A stretch of 64,000 bases of DNA from Arenimonas sp. SCN 70-307 (lineage in GTDB: Bacteria > Pseudomonadota > Gammaproteobacteria > Xanthomonadales > Xanthomonadaceae), in assembly GCF_001724815.1 (NCBI RefSeq), contig NZ_MEDO01000004.1:1-64000 (forward strand), read 5' to 3'. The notes beneath the pieces are model-generated. The model had not been told where the DNA came from and did not search any database. It saw only the letters and a list, made by a program, of their open reading frames with translations. Positions 6,902 through 62,770 of the stretch are shown here, in pieces. Numbering within the stretch: the stretch's first letter is position 1; every line of letters begins with the position of its first letter. The translations under genes and the position numbers were made by a program.

Positions 6902-9772
6902 ATGGCGACGCCCGGCCGCCCCAGGTTCGGCATCCGGGTGCAGCTGCTGGGCCTGTTCGGCCTGTTGCTGCTCACCGGTGCGGCGGTGCTGGGCCTGGAC
7001 GAGTACGAGCGCCAGCTCAACCAGCAGGTGCTGGTCGAACTCAAGGACGAATCCCTGGCCGGCCTGCGCCGCATCAAGGCGGTGTCCGACGCCTACGGCA
7101 TGGACATCGTCGACACCACCTTCCGCGTGCGCAACGACCTGATCAGCTGGGAAGAGGGCGTGCAGGTGGTCGACCACGCCCGCCTGCGCATCCGCGACCA
7201 CTGGCAGGCGCTGGAAAGCATGCCGCTGACCGAGGAGCAGGCGCAGATCTTCGCCCAGGTGGCGCGCGCCCGGCAGCGCGCCGACACGGCGGCCGAAACG
7301 CTGCGGCAGATCCTGCTGCAGAAGGACATCGTGGCGCTCGGCCGCTTCGCCGACACCGAGCTCTACCCGGCCATCGACCCGGTCACCACGCGGATGAAGC
7401 ACCTGGGCGACCTGGAGATGATCGAGGCCGAGCAGAAAGTGCGCGCCCAGGCCAAGCGCGCCCAGCGCGCCGCCTGGATCCGCACCTCGCTGAGTTTCGC
7501 CACACTGCTGGTGGTGGCGCTGGTGGGCCGCAAGCTGCTGCGGAACATCTACAAGGGCGTGGAATCGCTGACCGCGCTGGCCCAGCAGATGCGCCGGCAC
7601 GACTACCAGGGCAAGCCGCGCTACGAGCCCGAGGGTGAACTGGGCGAGGTGATGGACGCCTTCCTGGCCATGCGCGACGACGTGCGCAAGGTCGAGGCCG
7701 AACTCAACGAACAACTGGCCCGCAACGAGCAGGTGCGGGCGGCGCTGCAGGAGCGCGAGCTTTTCCAGCGCTCGCTGTTCGCCGCGGCGCGCGTCGCCAT
7801 CATGTCCATGGACGGCGAGGGCCGCTTCACCAGCTTCAACCCGCAGGCCGAGCGCCTGACCGGCCACCGCGCCGACCAGGTCAGCGGCCGCGCCGGCCTG
7901 GACCTGCTGGTGCGCCCGGACGAGATCGAAAAGCTCTCGGCGCGGCTCACCGCCGCCAGCGACCAGCCGGTGCCGGCCGACGCGCGCCTGTTCACGCGCC
8001 TGATCGACCAGGCGCCCGAGCCGATGGAGCTGTGCTTCCTGCGCAAGGACGGCAGCGAGGTGCCGGTGCTGCTGGCCACTTCGGCCATGCGCGACGCCAC
8101 CGGGCGCACGGTCGGCTACCTGGCGGTGGCCACCGACCTCACCCAGATCAAGCAGCTCGAGCAGCGCCTGCGCGCTTCCGAAGCACGCGCGCTGGAGGCC
8201 AGCGACGCCAAGTCGAACTTCGTGGCCGCCATGAGCCACGAGATCCGCACGCCGATGATCGGCGTCACCGGCATGCTCGAGGTGCTCGAGCACAGCCCGC
8301 TCGACGAGGAGCAGCGCCGCACCATCGAGGTCATCCGGCAGTCGGCGCGTTCGCTGCTGCAGATCATCGGCGACATCCTGGACTTCTCCAAGGTCGAGGC
8401 CGGCCGGCTCGAGCTCTCGCCCACCACCATCTCGCTGCCGCGGCTGCTGCAGTCCACCGTGGCCAACTTCAGCGGTTCGGCTTCGTCCAAGGGCCTGGTG
8501 CTGCTGTGCGAGGTGGACGACCGCATCGGCCCGGCCCACCGCGCCGACGGCCTGCGGCTGCGGCAGATCCTGTCGAACTTCCTGTCCAACGCCATCAAGT
8601 TCACCGAGAAGGGCGTGGTGGAGGCGGCGCTGGAATGGCAGGGCCGCGAGGGCGAGGGCGACCGCGTTTGCTTCCGCATCACCGACACCGGCATCGGCGT
8701 CACCGCCGAGCAGCAGGCGCGGCTGTTCCAGCCCTTCCAGCAGGCCGAGGGCAGCACCACGCGGCGTTTCGGCGGCACCGGCCTGGGCCTGGTGATCTCG
8801 CGCCGCCTGGCCGAACTGATGGGCGGCGAGATCCACATGGAAAGCACGCCGGGGGCCGGCACGACGCTGCGCCTGGTGCTGGTGCTGCCGCGTGGCCACG
8901 AGGAGGAGCTCGAGCCCGAGGCCGCGCCCGGCCCGGCCTCGGGCTTCCTGGCCCGGCCGCTGCCTTCGGTCGAGCAGGCGCTGGCCGAGCGCAGCCTGGT
9001 GCTGGTGGTGGACGACCACCCGACCAACCGCCTGGTCGTGGCGCGCCAGCTGGCCCTGGCCGGCTACGCCAGCGAAAGCGCCGAGGACGGCCGCAAGGGC
9101 CTGGAGGCCTGGCGCAGCGGCCGCTACGCGCTGGTGCTGTCGGACGTGCACATGCCCGAGATGGACGGCTACGAATTCGCCCGCGCGCTTCGCGCCGACG
9201 AGGCCGCGCGCCGGCTGCCGCGCACGCCGGTGGTGGCGCTCACCGCGGCGGCGCTCAAGGGCGAAGCCGAACGCTGCATCGCCGCCGGCATGGACGCCTA
9301 CCTCGCCAAGCCGGTGTCGATCCCCGAACTGGTGGCCACGCTGCAGCGGTGGCTGCCGCACACCGTGCCGCTGGCCGGCGACGTGCGCGCCGCCGCGCCG
9401 CTGCCGCAGCTCACGGGCGATCCGCTGCCGCTGGACCCGTCGGTGCTGGCGCCGCTGACCGGCGGCGACCCGGAGGCGACGAAGGAAGTGCTGGACGATT
9501 TCCTGGCCACCACCGAATCGGACATGGCCCCGCTGCGCAGTGCCCGCGCCGGCGGCGACCTCGCCGCGCTGGCGCGGCAGGCGCACAAGGTGAAAGGCGC
9601 CGCGCGCCTGGTGGGCGCGATGCCGCTGGGCGAAGCCGCCGCCGCGGTGGAAGCGGCGGCCAAGGCCGGCGAATGGGACCAGGTGCTGCCCTGCGTCGCC
9701 GACCTCGAAACCGCCTTCGAGCGCCTCAAGCGCCATCTGGCGAACCAGGTTGATTTTATCCAACCAGGTTGA
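6902..9772 (+). CDS. tripartite hybrid sensor histidine kinase (TM-PAS-HK-REC-HPt)
   Basis: Membrane sensor kinase of 956 aa. Domains in order: membrane segment (about 12-32), periplasmic helical sensor (33-190), second membrane segment (about 195-210), HAMP-like linker and coiled coil (210-290), PAS domain (about 290-415), HisKA with His446 in MSHEIRTPM, HATPase with the N box LSNAIKFTEKG and GTGLGL, receiver with Asp748 in LSDVHMPEMDG and Lys803 in LAKPVS, and a C-terminal HPt domain with His895 in AHKVKGAARLVG. This is a BarA/ArcB-type phosphorelay kinase. It follows the REC-EAL gene by 6 bp and most likely phosphorylates it, so signal input sets c-di-GMP breakdown. The last eight residues (QVDFIQPG) and the stop lie inside a long palindromic repeat and are not part of the HPt fold. 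Confidence 0.9.
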   Translation: MATPGRPRFGIRVQLLGLFGLLLLTGAAVLGLDEYERQLNQQVLVELKDESLAGLRRIKAVSDAYGMDIVDTTFRVRNDLISWEEGVQVVDHARLRIRDHWQALESMPLTEEQAQIFAQVARARQRADTAAETLRQILLQKDIVALGRFADTELYPAIDPVTTRMKHLGDLEMIEAEQKVRAQAKRAQRAAWIRTSLSFATLLVVALVGRKLLRNIYKGVESLTALAQQMRRHDYQGKPRYEPEGELGEVMDAFLAMRDDVRKVEAELNEQLARNEQVRAALQERELFQRSLFAAARVAIMSMDGEGRFTSFNPQAERLTGHRADQVSGRAGLDLLVRPDEIEKLSARLTAASDQPVPADARLFTRLIDQAPEPMELCFLRKDGSEVPVLLATSAMRDATGRTVGYLAVATDLTQIKQLEQRLRASEARALEASDAKSNFVAAMSHEIRTPMIGVTGMLEVLEHSPLDEEQRRTIEVIRQSARSLLQIIGDILDFSKVEAGRLELSPTTISLPRLLQSTVANFSGSASSKGLVLLCEVDDRIGPAHRADGLRLRQILSNFLSNAIKFTEKGVVEAALEWQGREGEGDRVCFRITDTGIGVTAEQQARLFQPFQQAEGSTTRRFGGTGLGLVISRRLAELMGGEIHMESTPGAGTTLRLVLVLPRGHEEELEPEAAPGPASGFLARPLPSVEQALAERSLVLVVDDHPTNRLVVARQLALAGYASESAEDGRKGLEAWRSGRYALVLSDVHMPEMDGYEFARALRADEAARRLPRTPVVALTAAALKGEAERCIAAGMDAYLAKPVSIPELVATLQRWLPHTVPLAGDVRAAAPLPQLTGDPLPLDPSVLAPLTGGDPEATKEVLDDFLATTESDMAPLRSARAGGDLAALARQAHKVKGAARLVGAMPLGEAAAAVEAAAKAGEWDQVLPCVADLETAFERLKRHLANQVDFIQPG

Positions 9773-9821
9773 ATTTGCCTGGGGCAAATTCAACCTGGTT
9801 GGATAAAATCAACCTGGTTCG
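9741..9821. repeat. perfect 39-bp palindrome spanning the kinase stop codon
   Basis: The arms 9741-9779 and 9783-9821 are exact reverse complements around a 3-nt loop TGG. Each arm contains two near-copies of AACCAGGTTGA followed by a T-rich block. The left arm encodes the end of the hybrid kinase including TGA. The unit AACCAGGTTGAATT matches 9 of 14 positions of GGTCAGGTTCACTT found in three other palindromes of this window. In RNA it would be a very strong hairpin and could terminate transcription or protect the mRNA end, though no clear T run follows. Confidence 0.85.
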
Positions 9822-9891
9822 TCGGCTTTCGTTGACGCTGGGGCGATTTGCGGCTCTCATTGGGCGCAACTGATCCACGGCGAGGCGAAAC

Positions 9892-10569
9892 GTGTTCCAG
9901 ATCAACCCGGCCTTTGCCGTCCCGCTGGTGATGGCCAGGCTCGACGATTGCCAGGCGCTCAACGCCGAACTGCGCGCGCTGTTCCTCGAGAAGGAAGCCC
10001 AGGGCGACAAGTACCGCAACCCCGAGCCGCTGGTGTACCGCAACGATGCCCTGTTCGAGAGCAACTTCCGGCTCTTCGACTGGCCGCAGCCCTGCATCGC
10101 CCAGCTGCGCACCTTCTGCCTGCGCAACCTCTACCGCGCCATCGGCGAGCTCAACGGCTACGACCAGGCGATGCTGCAGAAGCTGCACATCTCGGTCGAG
10201 TCGTGGTTCCACATCGCCCGCCGCGGCGGCTACTTCGGCGCGCACAACCACGCCATGCACTCGTGGTCGGGCGTGTACTGCGTCAAGCACGAGGACGACG
10301 ACCCGAAGTCCAGCTCGGGCCTGCTCACCTTCATGTACCCCAACTCGGCCGCCTCGATGTTCCTGGACATGTCGCTGGCGGGCATGAAGGGCCAGTACGC
10401 GCTCAGCCCGCGCATGCTGCGGCTCGAGGCCGGCCAGCTGGTGCTGTTCCCCTCCTGGCTGCTGCACGAGGTGCTGCCCTACGACGGCACCAGCGAGCGC
10501 ATCACCGTGGCCTTCAACGCCCGCTTCGCGCTCGAGGGCGCGCGCCCGGCCGAGGTGCCGCTGGGCTGA
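9892..10569 (+). CDS. putative 2-oxoglutarate/Fe(II)-dependent oxygenase
   Basis: Soluble protein of 225 aa resembling the small family of putative 2OG-Fe(II) oxygenases (Pfam 2OG-FeII_Oxy_5 type). The typical features are the iron-site region HNHAMHSWSGVYCV, where His residues precede an S-G-V-Y strand, and the late motif FPSWLLHEVLPY, where the second His sits in PSWLxHxVxP. The Arg in SERITVAFNARF is a candidate 2-oxoglutarate carboxylate ligand. Start is GTG 9892 with GGCGAGG upstream. The substrate is unknown; relatives hydroxylate small molecules or protein side chains. It is followed 16 bp later by an auxin-efflux-carrier-type transporter, probably in the same transcript. Confidence 0.75.
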   Translation: MFQINPAFAVPLVMARLDDCQALNAELRALFLEKEAQGDKYRNPEPLVYRNDALFESNFRLFDWPQPCIAQLRTFCLRNLYRAIGELNGYDQAMLQKLHISVESWFHIARRGGYFGAHNHAMHSWSGVYCVKHEDDDPKSSSGLLTFMYPNSAASMFLDMSLAGMKGQYALSPRMLRLEAGQLVLFPSWLLHEVLPYDGTSERITVAFNARFALEGARPAEVPLG

Positions 10570-10585
10570 GCCCGGCGGCCGCGCC

Positions 10586-11503
10586 ATGGATGCCTTCTGG
10601 CTGATCCTGGCGATGCTGGGGCTGGGGCTCGGCTTCCAGCACCTGCGCACCTTCCCGGACAACGCCGCGGAAGTGCTCAACAAGGTGGTGCTCTACGTCT
10701 GCCTGCCGGCGGCGGTGCTGCTGTACGCGCCGCGCCTGCAGCTGGGTGCCGGCGTGCTGGCAGTGGCGGCCGTGCCCTGGGCGCTGGTGGGCGTCACCGT
10801 GCTGGCCGTGGCCGGCCTCACGCGCCTGCTGGGCCTGCGTCGCGACGAGAAGGCGGTGCTGCTGCTGTGCGTGGCCCTGGGCAACACCAGCTTCCTGGGC
10901 TACCCGCTGGTGCGCGCCCTGCTGGGCGAAGACGCGCTGCCCTACGCGGTGGTGTACGACCAGTTCGGCGCCTTCCTCATCCTCTCCACCTTCGGCCTCT
11001 ACGTGCTGGCGCGCTACGGCGGCGACGCCGACCCCACCGCGCGCGAGATCGGCCGCCGCATCGTCACCTTCCCGCCCTTCCTGGCGATGGTCTTCGGCCT
11101 GACGCTGATGCCGGCCGAGCCGCCCGCGTGGATCGCCGGGGGCCTGCAGCGCCTGTCCGATGCACTGCTGCCGCTGGTGGTGCTGGCGATCGGCCTGGGC
11201 CTGAAGCTGAAACTGCCGCGCGACGAGCTCAGGCCGCTGGCCGCGGGCCTCACGCTCAAGCTCGGGGTGATGCCGGCCGTCGCGCTGGCACTCGTGTGGC
11301 TGCTGCCGCTGGGTCTGGAGCCGGTGGCGCGCGACACCGTCGTGCTCGAATCCGCCATGCCGCCCATGGTCACCGCCGCCGCCTTGGCGATATCGCACAG
11401 GCTCGCCCCCGGCCTGGCGTCGGCGATGGTGGGCTACGGCATCCTGCTTTCACTCGCCACCCTGCCCGCCTGGACCTGGCTCCTCAAAGCCATGCCCCTG
11501 TAG
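10586..11503 (+). CDS. AEC-family (auxin efflux carrier-like) transporter
   Basis: Integral inner-membrane protein of 305 aa with about ten hydrophobic segments and the layout of the AEC/PF03547 family: two five-helix repeats, conserved GNTSFLGYPLVRALLG in the fourth/fifth-helix region and VVYDQFG soon after. Bacterial members export or exchange organic acids such as malate or malonate; the substrate here cannot be read. The gene begins 16 bp after the putative 2OG oxygenase, suggesting an operon and possibly a shared dicarboxylate theme. Its stop codon TAG (11501-11503) lies within a TGTAGGAGCGGC motif like the head of the REP element at 13047. It converges on the Ycf46-like gene, leaving only 7 bp between the two stops. 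Confidence 0.85.
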   Translation: MDAFWLILAMLGLGLGFQHLRTFPDNAAEVLNKVVLYVCLPAAVLLYAPRLQLGAGVLAVAAVPWALVGVTVLAVAGLTRLLGLRRDEKAVLLLCVALGNTSFLGYPLVRALLGEDALPYAVVYDQFGAFLILSTFGLYVLARYGGDADPTAREIGRRIVTFPPFLAMVFGLTLMPAEPPAWIAGGLQRLSDALLPLVVLAIGLGLKLKLPRDELRPLAAGLTLKLGVMPAVALALVWLLPLGLEPVARDTVVLESAMPPMVTAAALAISHRLAPGLASAMVGYGILLSLATLPAWTWLLKAMPL

Positions 11504-11510
11504 GAGCGGC
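11499..11510 (+). repeat. solitary REP-head motif
   Basis: The 12-mer TGTAGGAGCGGC matches the conserved head of the REP pair at 13047-13125 (TGTAGGAGCGCC) but lacks the following hairpin. It supplies the stop codon of the AEC transporter. It may be a degraded element or coincidence. Confidence 0.4.
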
Positions 11511-12998
11511 TCAGTCGGCGGGCACGGTGCGGCCGCGGGCCCACTCGCGCAGCGCGTTGACCTGTTCGGCCATCAGCACGCTCAGCGGGCGGGTGGCCTT
11601 CACTTCCGACAGCACGCGCGCCTCGTCGACCGGCAGGCCGTCGGCGTGCGCGGCGTAGAGCGCGCTCACCACGGCCTGCTCGATCTCGGCGCCGGAGAAA
11701 CCGTCGGTGGCCTGCGCCAGCGCATCGAGCGAAAAGCCTTCCCAGTCCACCTCGCGGCGCGCCAGGTGCAGGCGGAAGATTTCGGCGCGGGCGCCGTGGT
11801 CGGGCAGGTCCACGAAGAAGATCTCGTCGAAGCGGCCCTTGCGCAGCAGCTCCGGCGGCAGGTCGTGGACTGCATTCGCGGTCGCCACCAGGAACACCTT
11901 CGACTTGCGCTCGGCCATCCAGGTGAGGAAATAACCCAGCACGCGCCGCGACACGCCGCCGTCCTCGCTGCTGCCGCTGGCGGCCAGGCCCTTCTCCAGC
12001 TCGTCGATCCACAGCACGCAGGGCGCCAGCTGCTCGGCCGAGGCCAGGGCGTCGCGCAGGTTCTTCTCGGTTTCGCCGTGGTACTTGTTGTAGAGCGTGC
12101 CGAAATCCAGGCGCACCAGCGGCACGCCGAAACCGCCGGCCACGGCCTTGGCCGCCAGCGACTTGCCGCAGCCCTGCACGCCCAGCAGCAGCATGCCCTT
12201 GGGCGGGTCCAGGCCCGGCGGCAGGTTGTCGGCGGTGAAGGCGGCGCGGCGCTGGTTCACCCAGGCCTTCAGGCGCGCGAGCCCGGCCACGTCGGCGAAC
12301 TGCGCGGTGTCGTATTCGAAATGCAGGTGGCCGGACTTGTTGAGCAGCTCGAACTTGAGCTTGGCCAGCTCGGGCAGGTCGCCCAGGCGCAGGGCGCCGT
12401 CGCTGAAGATCAGGTGCCGCGCCAGCCGGCGCGCCTCGGTGAGCGACAGCCCGCGCAGGTTGCGCACGATGGCCTTGAGCGCGTCCTGGTCCACCTCGAC
12501 CCGGCGGCCGCCGTGCTCGCGCATGTAGATCGCCGCCTCGTCCTGCACCACCTTCAGCAGCGCGCGTTCGTCCGGCAGGCGCAGGCTGAAGCGCACCGCC
12601 AGGTGCTCGAGGTCGGGCGGCAGCTCGATCTTCGCGCCCACCAGCACCAGGGTGTGCTCCTTGCTGCCGCGGCGCTCGAGCGTCTCGCGCAGCAGGCGCT
12701 GGGTGGTGGCGTAGCCCAGGTAGGGGTGGAAATCGAGAAGCAGGCAGACGCTGCGCTGGTCGAGCCCGCGGATGGCGCGGATCGTGGTGGTGGCGTCGGG
12801 TGGCGCCAGCGGCGGATCCTCGCCGTCGAGGTCGACGCGACGCAGACCCTCGGTGATCGACCAGCGGTACAGCGGCCGCCACACGTTCATCAGCAGGTGC
12901 CGGAACAGGTCCACCACCCGCCCCTCGTCCGGCGTCTCGATGACGATCAGCGCCGTGTTGGCGCGCACCAGCGAGGTCAGGTCCTGCAGCTCACTCAT
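11511..12998 (-). CDS. Ycf46-like AAA ATPase
   Basis: Cytosolic AAA+ ATPase of 495 aa, the usual length of the Ycf46 family. The N-terminal half (about 1-240) is the family-specific domain. The AAA module begins near residue 260, with Walker A GVQGCGKSLAAKA, Walker B CVLWIDELEKG, sensor region VFLVATANAVHDLP and the second arginine region RKGRFDEIFFVDLP. Ycf46 proteins are known from cyanobacteria, where one member influences inorganic carbon use; the role in proteobacteria is not settled. ATG 12998 begins MSELQDLTSLVRANTALI as in the family; the longer open frame upstream runs through a REP element and is rejected. Convergent with the AEC transporter. Confidence 0.88.
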   Translation of the reverse strand: MSELQDLTSLVRANTALIVIETPDEGRVVDLFRHLLMNVWRPLYRWSITEGLRRVDLDGEDPPLAPPDATTTIRAIRGLDQRSVCLLLDFHPYLGYATTQRLLRETLERRGSKEHTLVLVGAKIELPPDLEHLAVRFSLRLPDERALLKVVQDEAAIYMREHGGRRVEVDQDALKAIVRNLRGLSLTEARRLARHLIFSDGALRLGDLPELAKLKFELLNKSGHLHFEYDTAQFADVAGLARLKAWVNQRRAAFTADNLPPGLDPPKGMLLLGVQGCGKSLAAKAVAGGFGVPLVRLDFGTLYNKYHGETEKNLRDALASAEQLAPCVLWIDELEKGLAASGSSEDGGVSRRVLGYFLTWMAERKSKVFLVATANAVHDLPPELLRKGRFDEIFFVDLPDHGARAEIFRLHLARREVDWEGFSLDALAQATDGFSGAEIEQAVVSALYAAHADGLPVDEARVLSEVKATRPLSVLMAEQVNALREWARGRTVPAD

Positions 12999-13046
12999 CG
13001 ATGGTCCCCGGGCAAGAACGCCAAGGGTATCCAATTCGAAGCCCCT

Positions 13047-18972
<5,926 letters not shown>

Positions 18973-19098
18973 GCGCCCCCCGTGGAAACGGTGTGTCACC
19001 CCACGCTCACACACGCGTCTAGAGTTTCTGCTCGGCAACCTTCCCCGGCCGCCGCCGGCCGGGGTAGAGTGGCCCCACGTCCCGCTGCGGAGCCCGGC

Positions 19099-28605: not shown

Positions 28606-28647
28606 GGGGTCGGAGGTAATTCGCTGAAGCGAATTACCTCCGACCCC
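28606..28647. repeat. perfect 20-bp palindrome, GGGGTCGGAGG family
   Basis: GGGGTCGGAGGTAATTCGCT (28606-28625) and its exact reverse complement (28628-28647) are separated by GA. The outer 16 nt, GGGGTCGGAGGTAATT, follow the same GGGGYCRG...TT pattern as the palindromes at 30293, 45744, 59583 and 62724. It lies between divergent uppP and glnA, only 11 bp upstream of the first NtrC-like site. Confidence 0.85.
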
Positions 28648-28821: not shown

Positions 28822-30231
28822 ATGCCGTACAGCCACATCGAGAAACTGATCAAGGACCACGCCATCGAGTTCGTGGACCTGCGCTTCGCCGACCTGCGCG
28901 GCGTGCAGCACCACGTCACCTTCCCGGTGTCGATCGTCGAGCCGGCGCTGTTCGAGGACGGCAAGATGTTCGACGGCAGCTCGATTTCCGGTTGGCGCGG
29001 CATCAACGAGTCCGACATGATCCTGCTGCCGGATCCGGACACCGCGGTGCTCGACCCGTTCACCGCCGACCCGACCCTGATCCTGACCTGCGACGTGCTC
29101 GACCCGGCCACCATGCAGGGCTACTCGCGCTGCCCGCGCGGCATCGCCAAGCGCGCCGAGGCCTTCCTCAAGGCCAGCGGCGTCGCCGACCAGGCCTTCT
29201 TCGGCCCCGAGCCCGAGTTCTTCATCTTCGACTCGGTGCGCTGGGCCAACGAGATGGGCAACACCTTCTTCGAGGTCGACTCCGAGGAAGCGCACTGGAA
29301 CAGCAAGAAGAAGTACGAGGGCGGCAACTCCGGATACCGCCCGGGCGTGAAGGGCGGCTACTTCCCGGTGGCGCCGACCGATTCGCTGCACGACATCCGC
29401 GCCGAGATGTGCAAGCTGCTGATGGCCGCCGGCCAGGAAGTGGAAGTGCACCACCACGAGGTGGCCAACGCCGGCCAGTGCGAGATCGGCACCAAGTTCA
29501 ACTCGCTGGTGAAGAAGGCCGACGAGCTGTTCATGCTCAAGTACATCGTCAAGAACGTGGCGCACCGCAACGGCAAGACCGCCACCTTCATGCCCAAGCC
29601 GCTGGTGGGCGACAATGGCAGCGGCATGCACGTGCACCAGTCGCTGGCCAAGGGCGGCGTGAACCTGTTCACCGGCGACGGCTACGGCGGCCTGTCGCAG
29701 CTGGCGTTGTGGTACATCGGCGGCATCTTCAAGCACGCCCGCGCCATCAACGCCTTCTCCAACTCGGGCACCAACAGCTACAAGCGCCTGGTGCCGGGCT
29801 TCGAGGCGCCGGTGATGCTGGCCTACTCGGCTTCCAACCGCTCGGCCTCGTGCCGCATCCCCTACGTGGCCAACCCGAAGGCGCGCCGCATCGAGATGCG
29901 CTTCCCGGACCCGATCCAGTCGGGCTACCTGACCTTCACCGCGCTGATGATGGCCGGCCTGGACGGCATCAAGAACAAGATCGACCCGGGCGCGCCGAGC
30001 GACAAGGACCTCTACGACCTGCCGCCGGAAGAAGAGAAGAACATCCCGACCGTCTGCCACTCGCTCGACCAGGCCCTCGAGGCGCTGGACAAGGACCGCG
30101 AGTTCCTCAAGGCCGGCGGCGTGATGAGCGACGACTTCATCGACGGCTACATCGCGCTGAAGATGCAGGAAGTGACCAAGTTCCGCGCGGCCACCCACCC
30201 GCTCGAGTACCAGCTGTACTACGGCGTCTGA
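28822..30231 (+). CDS. glnA: glutamine synthetase type I
   Basis: Glutamine synthetase, 469 aa, the standard GSI length. It makes glutamine from glutamate, ammonia and ATP and works with GltBD. Recognisable parts: N-terminal beta-grasp with [15 protein letters not shown], catalytic [43 protein letters not shown], and [10 protein letters not shown]. The adenylylation loop is present as [14 protein letters not shown] with its Tyr near residue 397, so GlnE-type control is expected. ATG 28822 is preceded by CCGGAG. The upstream sigma-54 promoter with paired NtrC-like sites shows induction under nitrogen limitation. A hairpin terminator and a long palindrome follow. Confidence 0.97.
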
Positions 30232-30292: not shown

Positions 30293-30356
30293 ATGGGGCC
30301 AGGGAACATCGACGTTTCAGGCAAAGGCTTGAAGCGTTAATGTTCCCTGGCCCCAT
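30293..30356. repeat. nested palindrome, GGGGCCAGGG family
   Basis: Outer arms ATGGGGCCAGGGAACAT (30293-30309) and its exact reverse complement (30340-30356) enclose 30 nt that form a second, imperfect hairpin (CGACGTTTCAGG against CTTGAAGCGTTA, with some mismatches). The outer 16 nt GGGGCCAGGGAACATT-like end fits the pattern of the other palindromes. It lies just after the glnA terminator and 26 bp before the next gene. Confidence 0.8.
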
Positions 30357-45743: not shown

Positions 45744-45828
45744 AGGCACAAGAAACGGGGTCAGGTTCACTTATTTCCCGGGGCAACGCCCCGGGAAATA
45801 AGTGAACCTGACCCCGTTTCTTGTGCCT
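45744..45828. repeat. perfect 41-bp palindrome, GGGGTCAGGTTCACTT family
   Basis: Arms 45744-45784 and 45788-45828 are exact reverse complements around a 3-nt loop AAC. The conserved GGGGTCAGGTTCACTT begins 13 nt inside each arm; the outer AGGCACAAGAAAC and the inner ATTTCCCGGGGC are also perfectly repeated. It fills the whole gap between the convergent thiolase and hemY genes and its edge forms part of the hemY stop codon. It should act as a strong two-way hairpin. Confidence 0.9.
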
Positions 45829-50371: not shown

Positions 50372-50377
50372 GATAAT
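50372..50377 (+). promoter_or_regulatory. -10 box upstream of secB
   Basis: GATAAT at 50372-50377 in GTGCGATAATCCCCGG lies 42 nt upstream of the secB ATG and matches five of six -10 positions. Confidence 0.45.
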
Positions 50378-50419
50378 CCCCGGTCTTTCCACGATTCCCC
50401 TTAATTCCCGGAGCAAACC

Positions 50420-50917: not shown

Positions 50918-50927
50918 CCCGGGCCGC

Positions 50928-51956: not shown

Positions 51957-51978
51957 GCCGCGTTTCCCGCGCGCAAAA

Positions 51979-52010
51979 AGAAAGCCCGGCCGAAGCCGGG
52001 CTTTCTCGTT
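51979..52010. terminator. bidirectional rho-independent terminator
   Basis: AGAAAGCCCGGC (51979-51990), loop CGAA, GCCGGGCTTTCT (51995-52006), followed by CGTTTTC on the plus strand and, read from the minus strand, a T-rich flank (complement of CAAAAAG). It separates convergent gpsA and the Ax21-like gene. Confidence 0.9.
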
Positions 52011-52026
52011 TTCGATCCGTGGGGGA

Positions 52027-52575: not shown

Positions 52576-52692
52576 GTTTTTGTACTTCCGTTGTTGTTGG
52601 GGGAGGCCCCGCATCGCGAGGCTGGGGGCCAGTATCCGAATCCAAACGTAACGAAGGATTAACCCGGCACTGACTCGCACTTAACCGTGTCG

Positions 52693-53166
52693 TCAGTCAT
52701 GGGTGCGAGCGCCTGCGTAGCCGAACTGGCGCCAGGCCTCGAACACAGCCACGGCGACGGCGTTGGAGAGATTGAGGCTGCGCTGGCCGGCGCGCATCGG
52801 CAGCGTGAGCTGGTTTTGCGGCGCGACGCCCGTGAGGACCTCCGGCGGCAGGCCGCGGGTCTCCGGTCCGAACAGCAGCGCATCACCCTGGCGATAGGCG
52901 GGCTCGTCGAAACGCCGCGTTGCACGCGCGCTGAACGCGAACAGCCGCGGCTGGCCCAGTGCGTCCAGGCAGTCATCGAGGCTGGCATGGCAGCGCATGC
53001 TGGCGAACTCGTGGTAGTCCAGGCCGGCGCGGCGCAGGCGCGCGTCGTCGAGCTCGAAACCGAGCGGCTCGACCAGGTGCAGGTGGGCGCCGGTGTTGGC
53101 GCATAGCCGGATCACGTTGCCCGTATTGGGCGGGATCTCGGGCTGGTAAAGGATGACGTGCAGCAT
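52693..53166 (-). CDS. trmL: tRNA (cytidine(34)-2'-O)-methyltransferase
   Basis: SPOUT-class methyltransferase of 157 aa, modifying the wobble base ribose of leucine tRNAs. Typical features: [21 protein letters not shown] at the N-terminus, [23 protein letters not shown] (cofactor-binding knot) and [26 protein letters not shown] at the C-terminus. ATG 53166. A single-gene unit on the minus strand, followed by the Ax21-like gene after about 118 bp; a small gene of unknown function lies 36 bp upstream on the same strand. Confidence 0.95.
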
Positions 53167-53202
53167 CGCGGCATTATCGCCGCGCGAGGGTCGGGGCGGG
53201 GC

Positions 53203-53430
53203 TCAGCCGGCGCAGTGCAGGCGGCGGACCAGCAGGCCCAGGTCGCCGGGCATGCGCGACAGGCCGCGCGGGCCGGCCTGGCCCGGACCCGATTCGCAGG
53301 CCAGGCCCGCCGAGACCACGTCGCCCAGGGTCTTTTGCAGGCTGGGCGGTTCGAACAGCAGGGCGGCCAGGCCCAGGGCCAGCAGCGGCAGGGCGGCCAG
53401 GCTTCGGCGCAGGTGCGTTTGGTGGGACAT
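53203..53430 (-). CDS. small exported or anchored protein, unknown
   Basis: Possible 75-aa protein. N-terminal hydrophobic stretch (about residues 9-27: RSLAALPLLALGLAALLFEP), then a polar tail with two cysteines (LACESGP and RLHCAG). ATG 53430 has GGAAG 6 nt upstream; the frame is open to 53505 but earlier starts lack a ribosome site. No family recognised. It follows the exported protein gene 53533-54318 on the same strand by about 100 bp. Confidence 0.45.
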   Translation of the reverse strand: MSHQTHLRRSLAALPLLALGLAALLFEPPSLQKTLGDVVSAGLACESGPGQAGPRGLSRMPGDLGLLVRRLHCAG

Positions 53431-53532
53431 GGCGGCTTCCGGTTTCAGGAGGTGGCACCAAGGTTTTGCAGGAAGCGTGCCATCCACCATGGCCTTTGGA
53501 ATCAAAGACTTGGCGGTGTCCGGGCTGTCCGC

Positions 53533-54311
53533 TCAGCCGCCGCGGACGCTGCAGGCGGACAGTGGCTCGGCCGACAGGGCCTGCCACTGGTCCGGGGCGG
53601 CCGGCCCGGCCGGGCGGGGGAAGTCGATGCGCGCCAGCAGCTGGTCCTTGCCCTGGTCGTCGCGCAGGTTGCTCAGGCCCTCGAAGCGCAGCAGGCGGCG
53701 GCTGTCGCGGCCGTAGGCCACGTCGATGTGCGGCGCCAGCCAGCCCAGCAGGCCGCCCAGGCGCAGCCGGAAGAACTCGGCCGGCTCGCCCGCCACTTCG
53801 CCGGCGCCGCGGCGGCGCACGGTGAAGTCGTAGGCGTCGAGCCGGGAAGGCACCGCGAACTGCAGCGGCACCGGCTTGCCGTCGAGCAGCGGCTGCCAGC
53901 GCTCGCGGATGAACTCGTCGAAGCCGGCATCGGCCACCAGGGCCTCGCCGCCGGCCACCGGCGCACTGCGCTCGGCGGCCTGCGGGCCGCGCCGCACCCA
54001 CAGCTCGCCGGCGTCGCCGGCGCGGCGCAAGCCCTCGCGATAGCCCAGGCGCACGTCCTCGAAGGAGAACGCGGGCGCGAGCGAGGAGTCGCCGTAATCG
54101 ACCTGCTTGCGCGCGAAGGCGGTGCCGTCGGTGCAGCGGTAGACCACCAGGCGCCTGCGCAGCTCGCCGTCGGCGTGGTCGAGCAGGTGCTGCTCGCGAT
54201 AGAGCAGCGCGCCGCTGTCGGGGTCGCGCGCAAGGCCTTCCTGGAACTGCAGCGAGGCGGCCGCCGGCGCGGCGAGCGCGGCGATCGAAACAGCCAGCAT
54301 CAGGCGAAGCT

Positions 54312-54318
<7 letters not shown>
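53533..54318 (-). CDS. periplasmic protein, unknown function
   Basis: Predicted exported protein of 261 aa. Signal peptide (about residues 1-21: MVKLRLMLAVSIAALAAPAA), then a beta-rich domain (SLQFQEGLARDPDSGALLYR, LRRRLVVYRCTDGTAFARKQ, PLQFAVPSRLDAYDFTVRRR, IDVAYGRDSRRLLRFEGLS). The alternation and lack of catalytic motif suggest a ligand-binding or envelope-assembly protein; I know the pattern only as conserved hypothetical in related bacteria. The first 7 bp overlap the end of the SDR gene, so the two are co-transcribed. Confidence 0.75.
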
Positions 54319-55025
<707 letters not shown>

Positions 55026-55121
55026 CTCCCGACTATGGCCTTCGGCCTAGTGTATGGCCCGTCAATGCAGGCTAGGATTCAAGCCCCCCGGGCTGTCCGG
55101 GTGAAGAACAGGAACCCACGC

Positions 55122-57983: not shown

Positions 57984-58009
57984 GCCAGCCCCGGTACATT
58001 GCGGGTTAA

Positions 58010-58045
58010 GCACGGGCGGGGCGAGAATCCCGCCCGTGCCTTTTT
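58010..58045 (+). terminator. rho-independent terminator
   Basis: GCACGGGCGGG (58010-58020) and CCCGCCCGTGC (58029-58039) pair perfectly and are followed by CTTTTT. It ends the peptidase transcript. Because it lies directly ahead of the next gene's ribosome site, and TACATT (57995-58000) just upstream could be a -10, it might also attenuate that gene. Confidence 0.9.
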
Positions 58046-58056
58046 GGAGATTCGGG

Positions 58057-58452
58057 ATGCGAAAGATCGCTTTGGCCCTGGCCCTTGTTCCCCTCGTCGC
58101 CGCCTGTACGTGGGTCAAGATGGCGCCGGGTGGCGCGCAGGTCCGCGTGGCGGCCGCCGGCCAGGACCTTTCGTCCTGCGAGCGCCGCGGCGAGATCTCG
58201 GTGTCGGTCAGGGACCGCCTGGGCCCCTACTCGCGCAACGACATCAAGGTGCGCGACGAGCTCGAGACCCTGGCCCGCAACGAGGCGCCCGGCCTGGGCG
58301 CCGACACGGTGCAGCCCAAGGCCGCGCCCAACGACGGCGAGCAGCGATTCCTGGCCTTCAGCTGCCGCGGCGCCGCCCCGGCCGCGGCCGCCCGCCCGGC
58401 CGCCGGCAACCGCTCCGACGACGGCGTCGAGACCTATCCCATCGAGGATTGA
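58057..58452 (+). CDS. DUF4156-family lipoprotein
   Basis: Lipoprotein of 131 aa. Signal peptide MRKIALALALVPLVAAC with lipobox VAAC (Cys17). The DUF4156 pattern is visible: TWVKMAPGGAQVRVA, DLSSCERRGEISVSV, VRDELETLARNEAPGLGADTVQP, and FLAFSCRG, including the two cysteines that may pair. These lipoproteins are widespread in proteobacteria and uncharacterised. ATG 58057 has TTTGGAG 9 nt upstream, overlapping the end of the preceding terminator's T run. Confidence 0.85.
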   Translation: MRKIALALALVPLVAACTWVKMAPGGAQVRVAAAGQDLSSCERRGEISVSVRDRLGPYSRNDIKVRDELETLARNEAPGLGADTVQPKAAPNDGEQRFLAFSCRGAAPAAAARPAAGNRSDDGVETYPIED

Positions 58453-58457
58453 CGCCC

Positions 58458-58485
58458 CCGGCGGCCTTCGCGTGAAGGCCGCCGG
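58458..58485. terminator. hairpin after the DUF4156 gene
   Basis: CCGGCGGCCTTC (58458-58469) and GAAGGCCGCCGG (58474-58485) pair perfectly with a 4-nt loop. No T run follows, so it may end transcripts only weakly or mark an mRNA end. Confidence 0.6.
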
Positions 58486-58551
58486 AAGTTGAGCCAGGGG
58501 GGCGAAACGGGTAACTTTGACGGGTTTCCCCAACGCCGGGCATCCCCGCTT

Positions 58552-59568
58552 ATGTTGTTCAAGCATGTTTCCATTGCCGGCCTTGCCCATATCGATGCGC
58601 CGCATCGCCTGAGCTCGGCCGACATCAATGCCCGGCTCAAGCCGACCATGGACCGCCTCGGCATCAAGACCGACGTGCTCCAGGACATCGCCGGCATCTA
58701 TGCCCGCCGCCTGTGGGACGACGAGGTGCAGGCCTCCGACGCCGCCACGCTCGCCGCCGAGAAAGCCATCGCCGACGCCGGCGTCGACCGCGCCAAGATC
58801 GGCCTGCTGGTCAACACCTCGGTCAGCCGCGACTACCTCGAGCCGTCCACCGCCTCCATCGTCTCGGGCAACCTGGGCCTGGGCGAGAACTGCCAGAACT
58901 TCGACGTCGCCAATGCCTGCCTGGCCTTCATCAATGGCATGGACATCGCCAGCCGCATGATCGAGCGCGGCGAAATCGAATACGCCCTGGTCGTCGACGG
59001 CGAAACCGCCAACCTCGCCTACAAGAAGACGCTCGAGCGCCTGAGCGGCCCGGACGTCACCGAAGAGCAGTTCCGCAACGAGCTGGCCACGCTGACGCTC
59101 GGCTGCGGCGCCGCGGCCATGGTGCTCTCGCGCAGCGAGCTCACCCCGGACGCGCCGCGCTACAAGGGCGGCGTCACCAAGGCCGCCACGCAGTGGAACA
59201 CGCTGTGCCGCGGCAACCTCGACCGCATGGTCACCGACACCCGCATGCTGCTGATCGAAGGCCTCAAGCTCGCCACCGCCACCTTCGGCGCGGCGCGCCA
59301 GGCGCTGGGCTGGGTGGTGGACGAGCTCGACGAGTTCGTCATCCACCAGGTCTCGCAGGTGCACACCCAGGCCTTCATCAAGGCCTTCGGCATCGACCCG
59401 AACAAGGTGATGACCATCTTCAACGAGCACGGCAACATCGGCCCGGCCTCGGTGCCGATCGTGCTGAGCAAGCTCAAGGAAATGGGCCGCCTCAAGAAGG
59501 GCAGCCGCGTCGCCCTGCTGGGCATCGGCTCGGGCCTGAACTGCTCGATGGCCGAGGTCGAGTGGTAA
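58552..59568 (+). CDS. oleA: OleA, acyl-CoA condensing thiolase of olefin biosynthesis
   Basis: First enzyme of long-chain olefin biosynthesis, 338 aa: it condenses two fatty acyl-CoA molecules to a beta-keto acid. The N-terminus MLFKHVSIAGLAHIDAPHRL and length are those of Xanthomonas OleA. The catalytic residues line up: Cys123 in DVANACLAFI, Glu97 in RDYLEPSTAS, His265 in FVIHQVS and Asn295 in EHGNIGP. ATG 58552 is preceded by no strong ribosome site; the longer frame from 58489 adds an unrelated leader. oleB and oleC lie 3.2 kb further on, interrupted by a reversed efflux operon with flanking palindromes. Confidence 0.96.
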   Translation: MLFKHVSIAGLAHIDAPHRLSSADINARLKPTMDRLGIKTDVLQDIAGIYARRLWDDEVQASDAATLAAEKAIADAGVDRAKIGLLVNTSVSRDYLEPSTASIVSGNLGLGENCQNFDVANACLAFINGMDIASRMIERGEIEYALVVDGETANLAYKKTLERLSGPDVTEEQFRNELATLTLGCGAAAMVLSRSELTPDAPRYKGGVTKAATQWNTLCRGNLDRMVTDTRMLLIEGLKLATATFGAARQALGWVVDELDEFVIHQVSQVHTQAFIKAFGIDPNKVMTIFNEHGNIGPASVPIVLSKLKEMGRLKKGSRVALLGIGSGLNCSMAEVEW

Positions 59569-59582
59569 GAAGAAAGGGAAAA

Positions 59583-59669
59583 AGAAAGGGGGTCAGGTTC
59601 ACTTTTCGGGAGTAGCTGTTTCGCAAATGCGAAGTCCGCCTCCCGAAAAGTGAACCTGACCCCCTTTCT
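59583..59669. repeat. palindrome with nested hairpin, GGGGTCAGGTTCACTT family
   Basis: Arms 59583-59612 and 59640-59669 (30 bp each) are exact reverse complements; each contains GGGGTCAGGTTCACTT. The 27-nt centre (59613-59639) forms its own small hairpin TTCGC-AAAT-GCGAA. It fills the gap between oleA and the ABC ATPase gene and supplies the latter's stop codon. Confidence 0.9.
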
Positions 59670-60372
59670 ATTCGTCGCTGGCGATGCGGCCGTCGACCAG
59701 GGTGATGGTACGGTCGCACTGCGCCGACAGCCGCGGGTCGTGGGTCACCAGCAGCACCGCGCAGCCGAACTCGCGGTTGAACTTGCGGAACAGCGCGAAC
59801 ACGTCCGCCGCCGAATGGCTGTCGAGGTTGCCCGTCGGTTCGTCCGCCAGCAGCAGGGCCGGGCGCGTGGACAGCGCACGCGCCACGGCCACGCGCTGCT
59901 GCTGGCCGCCGGAAAGCTGGTCCGGCCGGCGCTGCTCCAGGCCCGACAGCCCCACCTGCGCCAGCAGCTCGCGGCCCCAGGCCAGCTGGGCCGGCGTGGG
60001 CTTGCCGCCGGCCACGATCAGCGGCATCAGCACGTTCTCCAGCGCGGTGAAGGCCTGGATGAGATGGTGGAACTGGAACACGAAGCCGATCGACTCGCGC
60101 CGCAGCCGCGTGCGGCCTTCATCGTCCATGCGCCGCGTGGGCTGGCCGAGCAGGTAGAGCTCGCCTTCGGTCGGCTGGTCGAGCAGGCCCACCACGTTGA
60201 GCAGGGTGCTCTTGCCCGAGCCCGAGGCGCCGACGAGCGCCGCGAAGTCGCGACGGTGCAAGGACAGGTCGAGGCCGTGCAGCACCTCCACCTCGGTCGG
60301 CTTGCCGACGTTGTAGCGCTTGCGCAGGCCCTCGAGCCGCAGCACTTCCTGGGCGGCGTCGTGCTCAGACAT
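59668..60372 (-). CDS. MacB/LolD-type ABC ATP-binding protein
   Basis: ATPase of 234 aa of the MacB/LolD class. Walker A GASGSGKST, Q loop FVFQFHHLIQAFTALENV, signature LSGGQQQRVAVARAL, Walker B LLLADEPTGNLD and switch His THDPR are all intact. It works with the FtsX-type permease and the adaptor encoded upstream on the same strand: either an efflux pump or a lipoprotein transport system. Overlaps the permease gene by 8 bp. Its stop TAG is formed by the flanking palindrome. Confidence 0.93.
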   Translation of the reverse strand: MSEHDAAQEVLRLEGLRKRYNVGKPTEVEVLHGLDLSLHRRDFAALVGASGSGKSTLLNVVGLLDQPTEGELYLLGQPTRRMDDEGRTRLRRESIGFVFQFHHLIQAFTALENVLMPLIVAGGKPTPAQLAWGRELLAQVGLSGLEQRRPDQLSGGQQQRVAVARALSTRPALLLADEPTGNLDSHSAADVFALFRKFNREFGCAVLLVTHDPRLSAQCDRTITLVDGRIASDE

Positions 60373-61567
60373 GGCGGATCGCCTCCACGGGGTCGAGCGC
60401 CGCCGCGCGCCGCGCCGGCACCGCCGCCGCGACGATGCCGGTGACGGTGGCCAGCCCCGCGGCCGCCACCGGCAGCCAGGGATCGACCGGGATGTAGAAC
60501 AGCCGCGGCCCGAAGGTGTTGAACACCCACACCAGGCCGTAGCCCGCGCCGCCGCCGACCACCGAACCGGCCAGCCCGAAGATCGCGCCCTGCAGCAGGA
60601 ACACCTGCAGCATCTGCCGGCGCGTGGTGCCCATCGCCCGCAGGATGCCGATCTCGCGCGTGCGCTGCACCACGCTCACGCTGAGCACGCTGGCGATGCC
60701 CAAGGCCACGCTTAGCGCCACGAACAGGCTGATCATGCGCGTGCTCAGGCTCTGCGAGCGCAGCGCGTTCATCAGCTGCGCGTTGGTTTCCATCCAGCTC
60801 TCGGCCTTGGCGCCGGTGAGCCGGGACAGCCGCGCGGCGACCTCGCGTGCGCCGAAGATGTCGTCCACCGTCACGTCGATGACGGTGGCGCCGCCGGGCA
60901 GGTCGAGCAGCGACTGGGTCTGCTTCATGTCCAGGTAGACGTAGCGCGAATCGAGCTCGCGCACGCCCAGCTCGAATATGCCGGCCACGTTGAGCACGGC
61001 TTCGCGGCCCTGGCCGGCGTCCAGGCGCAGCTTGTCGCCCACCTGCAGGCCGAGGTCGCGCGCGAGCTGGCTGCCGATCACCGCATCGCCGGCGCCGACG
61101 CGGAAGCTGCCGGCGACGATGTCCTCCTGCACCGGGATGATGCGCAGGTAGCGCGCCGGCTCGATGCCCACCAGCGCCACCGATTCCACCGCCTCGCCGC
61201 GGCGCGCGAAGGCCGGCCCCGAGATCACCGGCGACACCGCCCGCACCTGCTCGAGCGCATCGGCCGCCGCCACCACCTGCTGCCAGTTGTTGATCGAGCG
61301 CAGGCGCTGCGCGCGCCGCGTCTCGAGCAGCAGCTGCACCGCGCCGTCGGGCGCGGGCAGCACCACGTTGTTCTCTTCGGTGGGCTGGACGCGGATGTGC
61401 GCCTGGGTGCCGAGCGTGCGCTCGATGATGTTCGACTGCAGGCCGGTGATCAGTGCGGTCAGGAACACGATCACCGCCACGCCCACGGCGATGCCCACGA
61501 GGATCAGCGTGCTCTGCGCCTTGCCTTCGCGCAGGAAGCGGGTGGCGATGGTCCACTGCGCCCACAT
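60365..61567 (-). CDS. FtsX/MacB-type ABC permease
   Basis: Permease of 400 aa with the MacB/LolE topology: one membrane segment at the N-terminus (about 20-42), a large periplasmic domain (about 43-270), then three C-terminal membrane segments (about 280-300, 325-350 and 365-388), and the sequence RTREIGILRAMGTTRRQM at the coupling region typical of FtsX-like permeases. Expected to bind the ATPase inside the cell and the adaptor protein outside. Six bp after the adaptor gene, overlapping the ATPase gene by 8 bp, so the three make one operon. Confidence 0.92.
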   Translation of the reverse strand: MWAQWTIATRFLREGKAQSTLILVGIAVGVAVIVFLTALITGLQSNIIERTLGTQAHIRVQPTEENNVVLPAPDGAVQLLLETRRAQRLRSINNWQQVVAAADALEQVRAVSPVISGPAFARRGEAVESVALVGIEPARYLRIIPVQEDIVAGSFRVGAGDAVIGSQLARDLGLQVGDKLRLDAGQGREAVLNVAGIFELGVRELDSRYVYLDMKQTQSLLDLPGGATVIDVTVDDIFGAREVAARLSRLTGAKAESWMETNAQLMNALRSQSLSTRMISLFVALSVALGIASVLSVSVVQRTREIGILRAMGTTRRQMLQVFLLQGAIFGLAGSVVGGGAGYGLVWVFNTFGPRLFYIPVDPWLPVAAAGLATVTGIVAAAVPARRAAALDPVEAIRHV

Positions 61568-61572
61568 CGGCG

Positions 61573-62652
61573 TCAGTCCAGCTTCGCCGGCAGTTCCTTG
61601 CGCGTGGCCGGGTCCTGGCCAGCGCCCGGCGGGGCCATCGGCGTCGTGCGCACGCGCTGGCCCTCGGCCACCGGCGCGGACGCGTCGGCCAGCACCACGT
61701 CGCCGGGCGCCAGGCCTTCGATCACTTCGCTCAGGGCCAGGCCGCGCAGGCCCAGCGTCACTTCACGGCGCACCGCGCGGCCGTCGGAGGCGAGCCAGAC
61801 TTCGGCGCGGTTGCCGTCGATCGCGCCCAGCGCGTCGTTGGGCACCACGAGCGCCCGTTCGCGCCGGCCGGTCTCGATGTTCACCGACACGGTCATGTCC
61901 TGGCGCAGGAAGTCGGGCACCGGCGACACGGTGAGGCGGATGTCGACCGAGCCGCGCTGCGCGTCGACCGACGGCGCGATGAAGCCCACGGTCGCGTCGA
62001 AGGGCTGGCCGGGGAAGGCGTCGGCCACGCAGCGGGCCGGCTGGCCCAGGGCCAGCACGCCCAGGTTGCGCTCGTCGAGCGGCACCAGCACCTCGGTGTC
62101 GCCGTCGCGGGCGATCTCGAACAGCACGCGGCCCGGCTGCACCAGGTCGCCGGGCTCGGCGTTGCGGGTGAGCACGGTGCCGGCGACTTCGGCGCGCACG
62201 AGGGCCTTCTCGAGCTGGGCGCGGGCGGTGGCCACGCGGGCGCGTGCGGCGGTTTCGGCCTGGCGGGCCTGTTCGAGGTCCTCGCGAGCGATGAACTGGC
62301 GCTCGAACAGCCCGGCCCGGCGCACGGCTTCGCGGCGGGCCTGCCCGAGCGCGGCCTCGGCCTCGCGCACGGCGGCCTCGAGGTCGTCGGCGCGCAGCAC
62401 GGCCAGCACGTCGCCGGGCTGCACGCGGTCGCCCTCGCGCACGCGGCGTTCGAGCACCACGCCGGTCACCGGGCTGCCGGCCTGGGCGCGCGACACCGCC
62501 GCCACGCGGCCGGTCGCCACCACGGTCTGCACCAGCGGCTGCTCGCGCAGTTCGTAGGCGGCCAGCTCGGGCCCGCGCAGCGCCCCCACGGCCATCCAGC
62601 CCGCCAGGGCCGCTATCGGCAGGACGAGCAGTACAAGGCGGCGGCGGGTCAT
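61573..62652 (-). CDS. MacA/HlyD-type periplasmic adaptor protein
   Basis: Membrane-fusion protein of 359 aa. N-terminal anchor (about residues 7-25), then a lipoyl-like hybrid motif (VVATGRVAAVSRAQAGSPVTGVVLERRVREGDRV), an alpha-hairpin (about 95-160: AVREAEAALGQARREAVRRA and so on), a second lipoyl half (AEVAGTVLTRNAEPGDLVQPG) and a C-terminal beta-barrel. This is the MacA layout. First gene of the operon with the FtsX-type permease and ATPase, so the trio looks like a MacAB-type exporter; the substrate is unknown. It starts 72 bp from a palindrome that borders oleB. Confidence 0.92.
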   Translation of the reverse strand: MTRRRLVLLVLPIAALAGWMAVGALRGPELAAYELREQPLVQTVVATGRVAAVSRAQAGSPVTGVVLERRVREGDRVQPGDVLAVLRADDLEAAVREAEAALGQARREAVRRAGLFERQFIAREDLEQARQAETAARARVATARAQLEKALVRAEVAGTVLTRNAEPGDLVQPGRVLFEIARDGDTEVLVPLDERNLGVLALGQPARCVADAFPGQPFDATVGFIAPSVDAQRGSVDIRLTVSPVPDFLRQDMTVSVNIETGRRERALVVPNDALGAIDGNRAEVWLASDGRAVRREVTLGLRGLALSEVIEGLAPGDVVLADASAPVAEGQRVRTTPMAPPGAGQDPATRKELPAKLD

Positions 62653-62723
62653 GCGGGCTCCGTGGCAGGGACTACCAGCGCGACGATACCCAAACCCCCG
62701 TGACGACGTCAGTCACGAGAAAG

Positions 62724-62770
62724 GGGGTCAGGTTCACTTCCGGGCCGGCCCGGGAAGTGAACCTGACCCC
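62724..62770. repeat. short palindrome, GGGGTCAGGTTCACTT family
   Basis: GGGGTCAGGTTCACTT at 62724-62739 and its reverse complement at 62755-62770 enclose a GC-rich centre CCGGGCCGGCCCGGG with one unpaired base. It is the shortest member of the set. The -10 box of oleB begins 8 bp downstream. Confidence 0.88.

Follow-up and report, generated by a model that had tools for sequence, protein, structure and literature searches.

Palindromes near gene ends of Arenimonas sp. SCN 70-307 as probable non-autonomous elements of parallel TIRYT transposase systems

The window analyzed here, the 64,000 nucleotides at positions 1 to 64,000 of contig NZ_MEDO01000004.1 from Arenimonas sp. SCN 70-307 (genome G000; 2,928,465 bases, 35 contigs), contains six palindromes with short inverted ends of several families, all located at, or a few bases from, the positions given in an initial annotation of the sequence. 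Three of them belong to the family denoted type 3 (end GGGGTCAGGTTCACTT). The first, at 45744-45828, has arms of 41 bp that are 100% matched, with the ends at 45757-45772 (plus strand) and 45800-45815 (minus strand) and a 27-nt hairpin inside; the second, at 59583-59669, has ends at 59589-59604 (plus) and 59648-59663 (minus) and an inside of 43 nt with an inner stem of 8 bp; the third, at 62724-62770, has ends at 62724-62739 (plus) and 62755-62770 (minus) with 15 nt inside. Each of the first two is flanked by convergent called genes. The type-1 element at 28606-28647 (GGGGTCGGAGGTAATT ends, 10 nt inside) separates the likely starts of a minus-strand open reading frame (ORF) and of a plus-strand ORF ending at 30231; the gene caller set 28606 within a gene, misled by open frames that, at their longest, begin at TTG and extend across the element. 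On the 3' side of the ORF ending at 30231 there is, by eye, a GC-rich terminator-like hairpin, directly followed by the type-2 element at 30293-30356 (GGGGCCAGGGAACAT ends at 30295-30309 and 30340-30354, arms 87% matched). The type-4 element, at 9741-9821, has arms of 39 bp that are 100% matched, each with two nested GAACCAGGTTGATTTTAT-type ends. The plus-strand ORF 6902-9772, a long frame that by its motifs seems to resemble a hybrid histidine kinase, owes its final codons (...ANQVDFIQPG) and its stop to this palindrome.

The 16-mers start at 28606, 30295, 45757, 59589 and 62724. Palindromes were initially described as beginning with the 16-mer, which is the case at 28606 and 62724, whereas in the three other cases the palindrome extends outside it; all 16-mers were also described as ending in TT, but the left arm of the type-2 element ends in TC and only its right arm has ...CATT. 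The single 16-nt pattern proposed for all six palindromes survives as several variants of one end pattern, to which type 4 does not belong: the palindrome at 9741, which had been matched to the third type at 9 of 14 positions, contains no GGGG pattern, and its unit, GAACCAGGTT[GC]ATTTTAT, defines a separate family.

Counts across the whole genome, compared with reversed-pattern controls, demonstrate that the six palindromes exceed chance. The type-3 end GGGGTCAGGTTCACTT is present in 102 exact copies (53 forward and 49 reverse), or 105 (54 and 51) with at most one mismatch, and the control yields 0; the type-1 end GGGGTCGGAGGTAATT is found at 32 sites with at most one mismatch (16 in each orientation, 26 exact; control 0), and the type-4 end AACCAGGTTGAATTT at 34 sites with at most two mismatches (17 in each orientation; control 1 and 0). 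Type 2 (GGGGCCAGGGAACAT) is nearly single-copy, with one exact pair and one single end with a mismatch; a second, diverged copy was recognized by DNA similarity at C14:436367 (contig:position), and its two end changes are matched on both arms. Thus, 16-mers occurring only once or twice, or mostly singly, an outcome that would have spoken against families, were not found for types 1 and 3, whereas type 2 comes close to it.

Pairing was counted in 554,888 bases (19% of the genome) that include 100 of the 102 exact type-3 sites, 84 of which form 42 inverted pairs. Among the other 16 sites are the four ends of the transposase unit, ends whose partner is mutated, ends in doubled form and a small number of isolated ones. 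Direct repeats were considered as the main layout and rejected: doubled ends do occur (e.g., at C1:142997 and C14:329092), yet the pairs are mostly inverted. Each element accordingly consists of a short end in two inverted copies (approximately AAGAAASGGGGTCAGGTTCACTT in type 3) that flank an inside of free sequence. Among 68 type-3 pairs, 42 from G000 and 26 from five congeners, a matched outer part, AAGAAA followed by C or G, is preserved around the 16-mer, and the base preceding the 16-mer is identical on both arms in 64 (C/C in 38, G/G in 26). The insides are 3 to 49 nt long, with clusters at 3-18, 23-36 and 40-49, and mostly differ between copies but are usually self-complementary: the inside opens with a stem of 3 bp or longer in 54 of the 68 pairs, compared to 3.7% of shuffles, and with one of 5 bp or longer in 42, compared to 0.45%. 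In a comparison of two type-3 sets that were both picked by exact 16-mers, the exactness of the ends is partly due to this selection. Capture of the insides from elsewhere in the genome was not supported: when 30 insides of at least 20 nt (types 1, 3 and 4) were compared with the same 554,888 bases, only matches of 14-23 nt with E of 0.003 or weaker were obtained, besides one sister copy and further type-4 ends, and this is weak evidence since the comparison covered 19% of the genome.

Comparison with congeneric genomes reveals extensive turnover of the sites. For the 45744 site the comparison covers 13 congeners: three are empty (G022, G011 and G019); G021, the nearest relative, carries a type-1 palindrome with slightly altered ends; G016 has a GTGGGAGGGAC REP-like (repetitive extragenic palindromic) doublet, G004 a GGGGTCAGAGTCGATTT palindrome, and G013 a GATCTGACCCTTTG array whose motif is also found on the flanks of the G013 transposase L099; G012 (L116) has 436 nt of other DNA with, by eye, long inverted-repeat stretches; and G003, G020, G023, G002 and G010 have 3-20 nt without an element, some of which resemble end remnants. 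Similarly, the 62724 site is occupied in G026 by a type-3 element with a different inside, in G021 by a decayed type-3 element and in G023 by a type-4-like palindrome, with none in G020, the last of the four congeners compared. For the 28606 site, ten congeners were available: G021 has a type-1 element with a different but equally long inside, G019 and G016 have GTAG REP doublets, G023 has a different palindrome, and none was recognized in the remaining six. Type 2 is absent at its site in the three congeners in which both flanks could be aligned (G021, G023 and G016).

In a comparison of G000 with G021, 60 elements were looked for; 26 could be placed, and one placement was discarded as spurious (67-69% identity). 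Among the remaining 16 type-3 sites, with flanks 83-97% identical, five are intact in G021, two are decayed, three are occupied by another family and six have no recognizable element, the intact class being over-represented because the G021 stretches were picked via synteny with known G021 type-3 sites. At shared sites the ends stay exact and the insides usually differ; a single one of the five intact sites keeps the same inside, and at two type-3 sites (C5:5104 and C24:26972) the base pair adjoining the 16-mer is swapped on both arms. Five of the six type-1 sites located in G021 are shared in some state, and type 4 is found at none of the three located type-4 sites. Homology of the 41-nt insides of the element at C14:329122 and of one in G019 was considered and not established (23 of 41 positions agree, but 19 of 41 do so in the reverse orientation). 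In congeners these sites are vacant or occupied by a different family or by a REP-like doublet, so that the elements come and go.

With respect to genes, 30 of the 42 type-3 elements and 11 of the 14 type-1 elements have a 3' end as their closest called gene end, compared to 2013 of 4800 random intergenic points, and convergent gene pairs flank 17 of the 35 intergenic type-3 elements, whereas 55 of 275 junctions overall are convergent (Fisher p 0.0005). At the feet of the 42 type-3 elements, examined at four offsets, direct repeats of at least 3 nt are not above shuffles, so that the target-site duplication expected of miniature inverted-repeat elements moved by a DDE transposase was not observed.

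The genome encodes four proteins that match PF01797 (L001 to L004), all outside the window, in agreement, as far as PF01797 goes, with the earlier statement that the window holds no transposase. L001 (C10:17343-18041) has doubled, inverted type-3 ends on both sides, and L002, located on the window's own contig about 26 kb past the window (C4:89999-90679), has doubled type-4 ends on both sides; both transposases are single-copy in this genome. L003, on contig C27, is flanked by GTAG REP doublets near-identical to the classical doublet of this different kind at window positions 13047-13125 (TGTAGGAGCGCC...GGCGCTCCTACA), and together with these REPs is a further palindrome-transposase system of the same genome; L004 is a weak match. 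Exact type-1 or type-2 ends were found at none of the four loci, so that the claim that each type has its own Y1 transposase stands for types 3 and 4 but not, at these matches, for types 1 and 2. Among relatives, type-1-like ends (GGGGACGGAGGTAATT) adjoin transposases in other genera, namely L098 and L104 and, in changed form, L170 and L199; type-2-like ends (GGTGTCAGGGACAATT) adjoin the transposase loci L084 and L132. These named relatives come from a single scan of genome contigs, as the best 80 of at least 582 confirmed matches. A fifth family, type 5 (GGGGAC[AG]GGTGCA[AT]TT), is represented in G000 at C14:103, C14:615766, C1:12318 and C1:124628 and in G021 at C16:12365, and the second transposase of G021 is situated between type-5 palindromes. 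A long hairpin without mismatches lies within the type-5 element at C1:12318.

Some match to L001 was detected in 81 of 100 genomes (G000 and 99 relatives), and the exact type-3 16-mer in 21 of the 100, G000 included. An inverted GGGG-type end is present at 76 of 111 transposase loci, compared to 9 of 111 in the direct-orientation control, for a pattern that was drawn up after inspection of the flanks and that type 4 is unable to match. The ends track the protein: protein and end distances across 68 loci are correlated (Mantel r 0.374, with none of 2000 permutations as high), and also when the test is restricted to pairs below 60% identity (r 0.271, none of 1000 permutations as high). H60-x-H62 and Y120 are invariant across 23 aligned sequences. 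A structure model of L125, a relative 72% identical to the L001 protein (pLDDT 93.5), has as its best PDB match in Foldseek 4er8, a REP-associated tyrosine transposase (E 6e-8). Together with PF01797 and the invariant residues, this identifies the transposases as Y1 HUH enzymes with a single-tyrosine motif. With regard to the C-terminal helix-turn-helix extension of TnpA-Y1 subclass 2.1, the L125 model has helices in its C-terminal part at 158-173, 178-189 and 197-207; Pfam found no helix-turn-helix domain, the C-terminal part not having been searched separately.

Given the families with their cognate units, the turnover of sites, the exact ends, the self-complementary insides and the gene-end habit, the palindromes are very probably mobile but non-autonomous, and belong to several TIRYT systems existing in parallel, that is, Y1 HUH enzymes of the REP-transposase branch with terminal inverted repeats (TIRs). 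The initial proposal of mobile, non-autonomous copies with a preference for gene ends, in inverted pairs, is supported. Several points weigh against this interpretation. Movement itself was not observed. Type 1 has its 32 sites in G000 and no transposase bearing its ends was found there, and G002 has 30 exact type-3 sites but a weak protein match only (E 2e-6); hence copies persist without an evident enzyme, and G002 indicates that ends can outlive the enzyme. The GGGG-type end, whose pattern excludes type 4, is not shown by 35 of the 111 transposase loci, the Mantel test omits 8 of the 76 loci with ends, and the NCBIfam REP transposase model scores 65.5 and 74.7, under its cut-off of 80. Type 4 has no preference for 3' ends (nearest in one of four elements); moreover, the orientation and distance counts rest on crude gene calls, and 7 of the 42 type-3 elements, being called inside a gene, are omitted from the orientation count.

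By analogy with TnpA-REP, for which this has been demonstrated biochemically, the cognate enzyme would cut and join single-stranded DNA at the ends, and the elements would be copied or excised in hairpin form and would insert again into exposed DNA behind genes; the insides might drift or be picked up because the ends and the hairpin alone would matter. TnpA-REP cuts single-stranded DNA beside its hairpin and rejoins it via a 5'-phosphotyrosine (PMC8266576), and excised REP doublets forming hairpins (REPINs) are hairpins that bear a 5' tail (PMC3116915).

The alternative that survives best, although we regard it as rather doubtful, is that the ends accrete on pre-existing hairpins: the enzyme would join an end to the 5' foot and the 3' end would copy the overhang, which would yield a symmetric pair in one step, with insertion of whole elements as one route of two. 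Excised REPINs form tailed hairpins of this kind (PMC3116915). Self-primed fill-in is possible for a hairpin with a 5' overhang and would account for the symmetric addition to a terminator as well as for the co-changing arms; in addition, TIRs of two Pseudomonas species are made of degenerate REP units joined with unrelated stem-loops (PMC3733652). The main evidence comes from C24:34316, where 29 congener loci were compared. G003 and G004, aligned on both sides, have a naked terminator there, GGCCCGC-loop-GCGGGCC, and so do G019 and G011, aligned by the left flank only; in G000 a similar hairpin, GAAAAAGGCCCGC-CGA-GCGGGCCTTTTTC, is enclosed by type-3 ends, and in G021 GAAACAGGCCCGC-loop-GCGGGCCTGTTTC is enclosed by type-5 ends (GGGGACGGGTGCATTT). 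At the same site, REP-like doublets are present in G016 and G012 and a different palindrome in G020 (one flank), whereas in G026 the flanks are on separate contigs, which carry a different naked terminator and a REP-like doublet, respectively. At this one place, then, an existing terminator hairpin seems to have been wrapped by type-3 ends. A related core at C24:33430 is bordered by a single type-3 end in G000 and by a pair of type-5 ends in G021, and five concentric palindromes in G021 have type 3 as the inner and type 5 as the outer family; at C14:600906, which is one of these nested sites, type 3 is the only family in G000.

Against accretion, a clear naked ancestor is available at one site only, and for most other insides a naked counterpart is not present in the sequences compared. 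The core at C24:33430 is lacking in 13 other congeners with both flanks aligned, one of which has a REP-like doublet instead. The congeners yielded no naked terminator at C14:591036, and the inside there may accordingly have arrived with a copied element. A prior hairpin resembling the inside was seen neither at 45744 (13 congeners) nor at C15:41015 and C5:8212 (both compared with G021 only). The GGCCCGC stem motif occurs four times in the 554,888 bases searched, three of these within elements, and these three insides possibly represent a single lineage of copied elements; likewise, four of the five nests resemble copies of a single chimera. Finally, four sites carry different families in G000 and G021, and the core is common to both genomes in two of them but not in the other two. 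We therefore suggest only tentatively that transposase-specific ends are added symmetrically, in place, at the feet of existing hairpins, be they host terminators or elements of other families. If so, palindromes would grow as concentric shells, the ends of one family could replace those of another around the same core, and the enzymes would act as hairpin taggers that capture and mobilize terminators, beyond moving fixed elements.

The remaining explanations fare worse. Ordinary REPs or REPINs of a GTAG-type REP-associated tyrosine transposase (RAYT) would share the doublet layout, the free hairpin spacer and the single-copy transposase (PMC3116915), and G000 does hold a GTAG REP family flanking the Y1 locus L003; however, the GTAG/GTGG foot is absent from the ends of types 1-4, there is no hairpin within a single end, and the GTAG family and its transposase are located at separate loci, which makes this identity improbable. 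Even less probable is that the palindromes are immobile host transcription terminators that are alike by coincidence: a two-way terminator would fit the A-rich and T-rich outer arms of type 3 and the bias toward gene ends and convergent junctions, but not the 102 exact 16-mers, the same ends at transposase flanks or the filled, empty and replaced congener sites. In Neisseria, uptake signals are paired at gene ends. That the ends are such words, held exact by transformation, would account for the exactness of the words, for their inverted pairing at gene ends and for the free insides, but is hardly tenable given about 100 copies rather than hundreds to thousands (PMC2346458), 84 of the 100 examined sites paired, a patchy presence in 21 of 100 genomes, G000 included, and several words in one genome, three of them linked to a transposase.

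Other repeats were encountered in the course of this analysis. A stretch of about 90 bp at window positions ~32624-32740 matches many places at ~71-88% identity in G000 and other genomes of the genus, and is perhaps a conserved coding stretch. Two 114-bp palindromes (GGTCCGYCGTRCGCGCAGTCCTTTGCCGGGG...) at C18:60517 and C3:80087 in G000 are unrelated to the other families, and 'GCGGATGAACACGGATAAA'-like repeat arrays are located close to gene ends at L014, L280 and L337.

The genus thus provides several systems side by side, with natural before and after states at the same gene ends, and can inform on enzyme recognition, on the origin and spread of palindromes and on whether bacteria gain new or mobile terminators in this way; if ends do accrete around terminators, the combination of exact ends, free self-complementary insides and the gene-end habit becomes a testable puzzle. 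In kind, the elements described here belong to the TIRYT/TIRtron system published by Di Nocera et al. (2013, PMC3733652), their doublets having the architecture of REPINs, and the initial suggestion that this set might be undescribed is not supported: the parts of that report covered here already describe a RAYT-related Y1 HUH transposase with long inverted repeats on its flanks, TIRs many of which hold GGGGWSAS, a motif that is frequent but not universal, TIRs repeated genome-wide in single, dimeric or grouped copies, some of them self-complementary, and a strain, Stenotrophomonas maltophilia K279a, with two TIR families and two transposases in one genome. L001 and L002 are flanked by long inverted ends (type 3 and type 4, respectively), not by REPs; the type-3 end fits GGGGWSAS (GGGGTCAG), types 1 (GGGGTCGG) and 2 (GGGGCCAG) are off by one letter, and type 4 lacks the motif. 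The TIRYT transposases probably correspond to subclass 2.1 of the TnpA-Y1 enzymes as classified by Quentin et al. (2018, PMC6006769), in a survey in which probable TIRYT-subclass transposases were found in 14.9% of strains.

From the IS200/IS605 elements, with which they share the Y1 HUH fold and presumably a single-strand mechanism, the present systems differ in having long inverted repeats as ends instead of subterminal hairpins, and transposases that, for types 3 and 4, are single-copy in G000. REPINs, as described by Bertels and Rainey (2011, PMC3116915), consist of two inverted conserved 16-mers that form a hairpin with a less conserved spacer, the length and folding of which seem important, compensatory changes being common; the inverted doublets with a variable hairpin spacer found here share this layout. 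In contrast to REPINs and RAYTs, the ends have no GTAG/GTGG foot and no in-end hairpin, and the transposase pairs with TIRs. Coevolution of REPs and RAYTs and hybrid clusters of two REP types have been reported as well (PMC2817692). In the parts covered of PMC6006769, PMC3733652, PMC2817692, PMC3116915, PMC8049555 and PMC8266576, we found no wrapped terminator and no nested TIR family. Compared with the parts of PMC3733652 and PMC6006769 examined, the features that distinguish the systems described here, and that are new as far as the literature covered goes, are the free self-complementary insides within TIR doublets, the turnover of elements at single gene ends, the wrapped terminator and the concentric nesting of one family within another.

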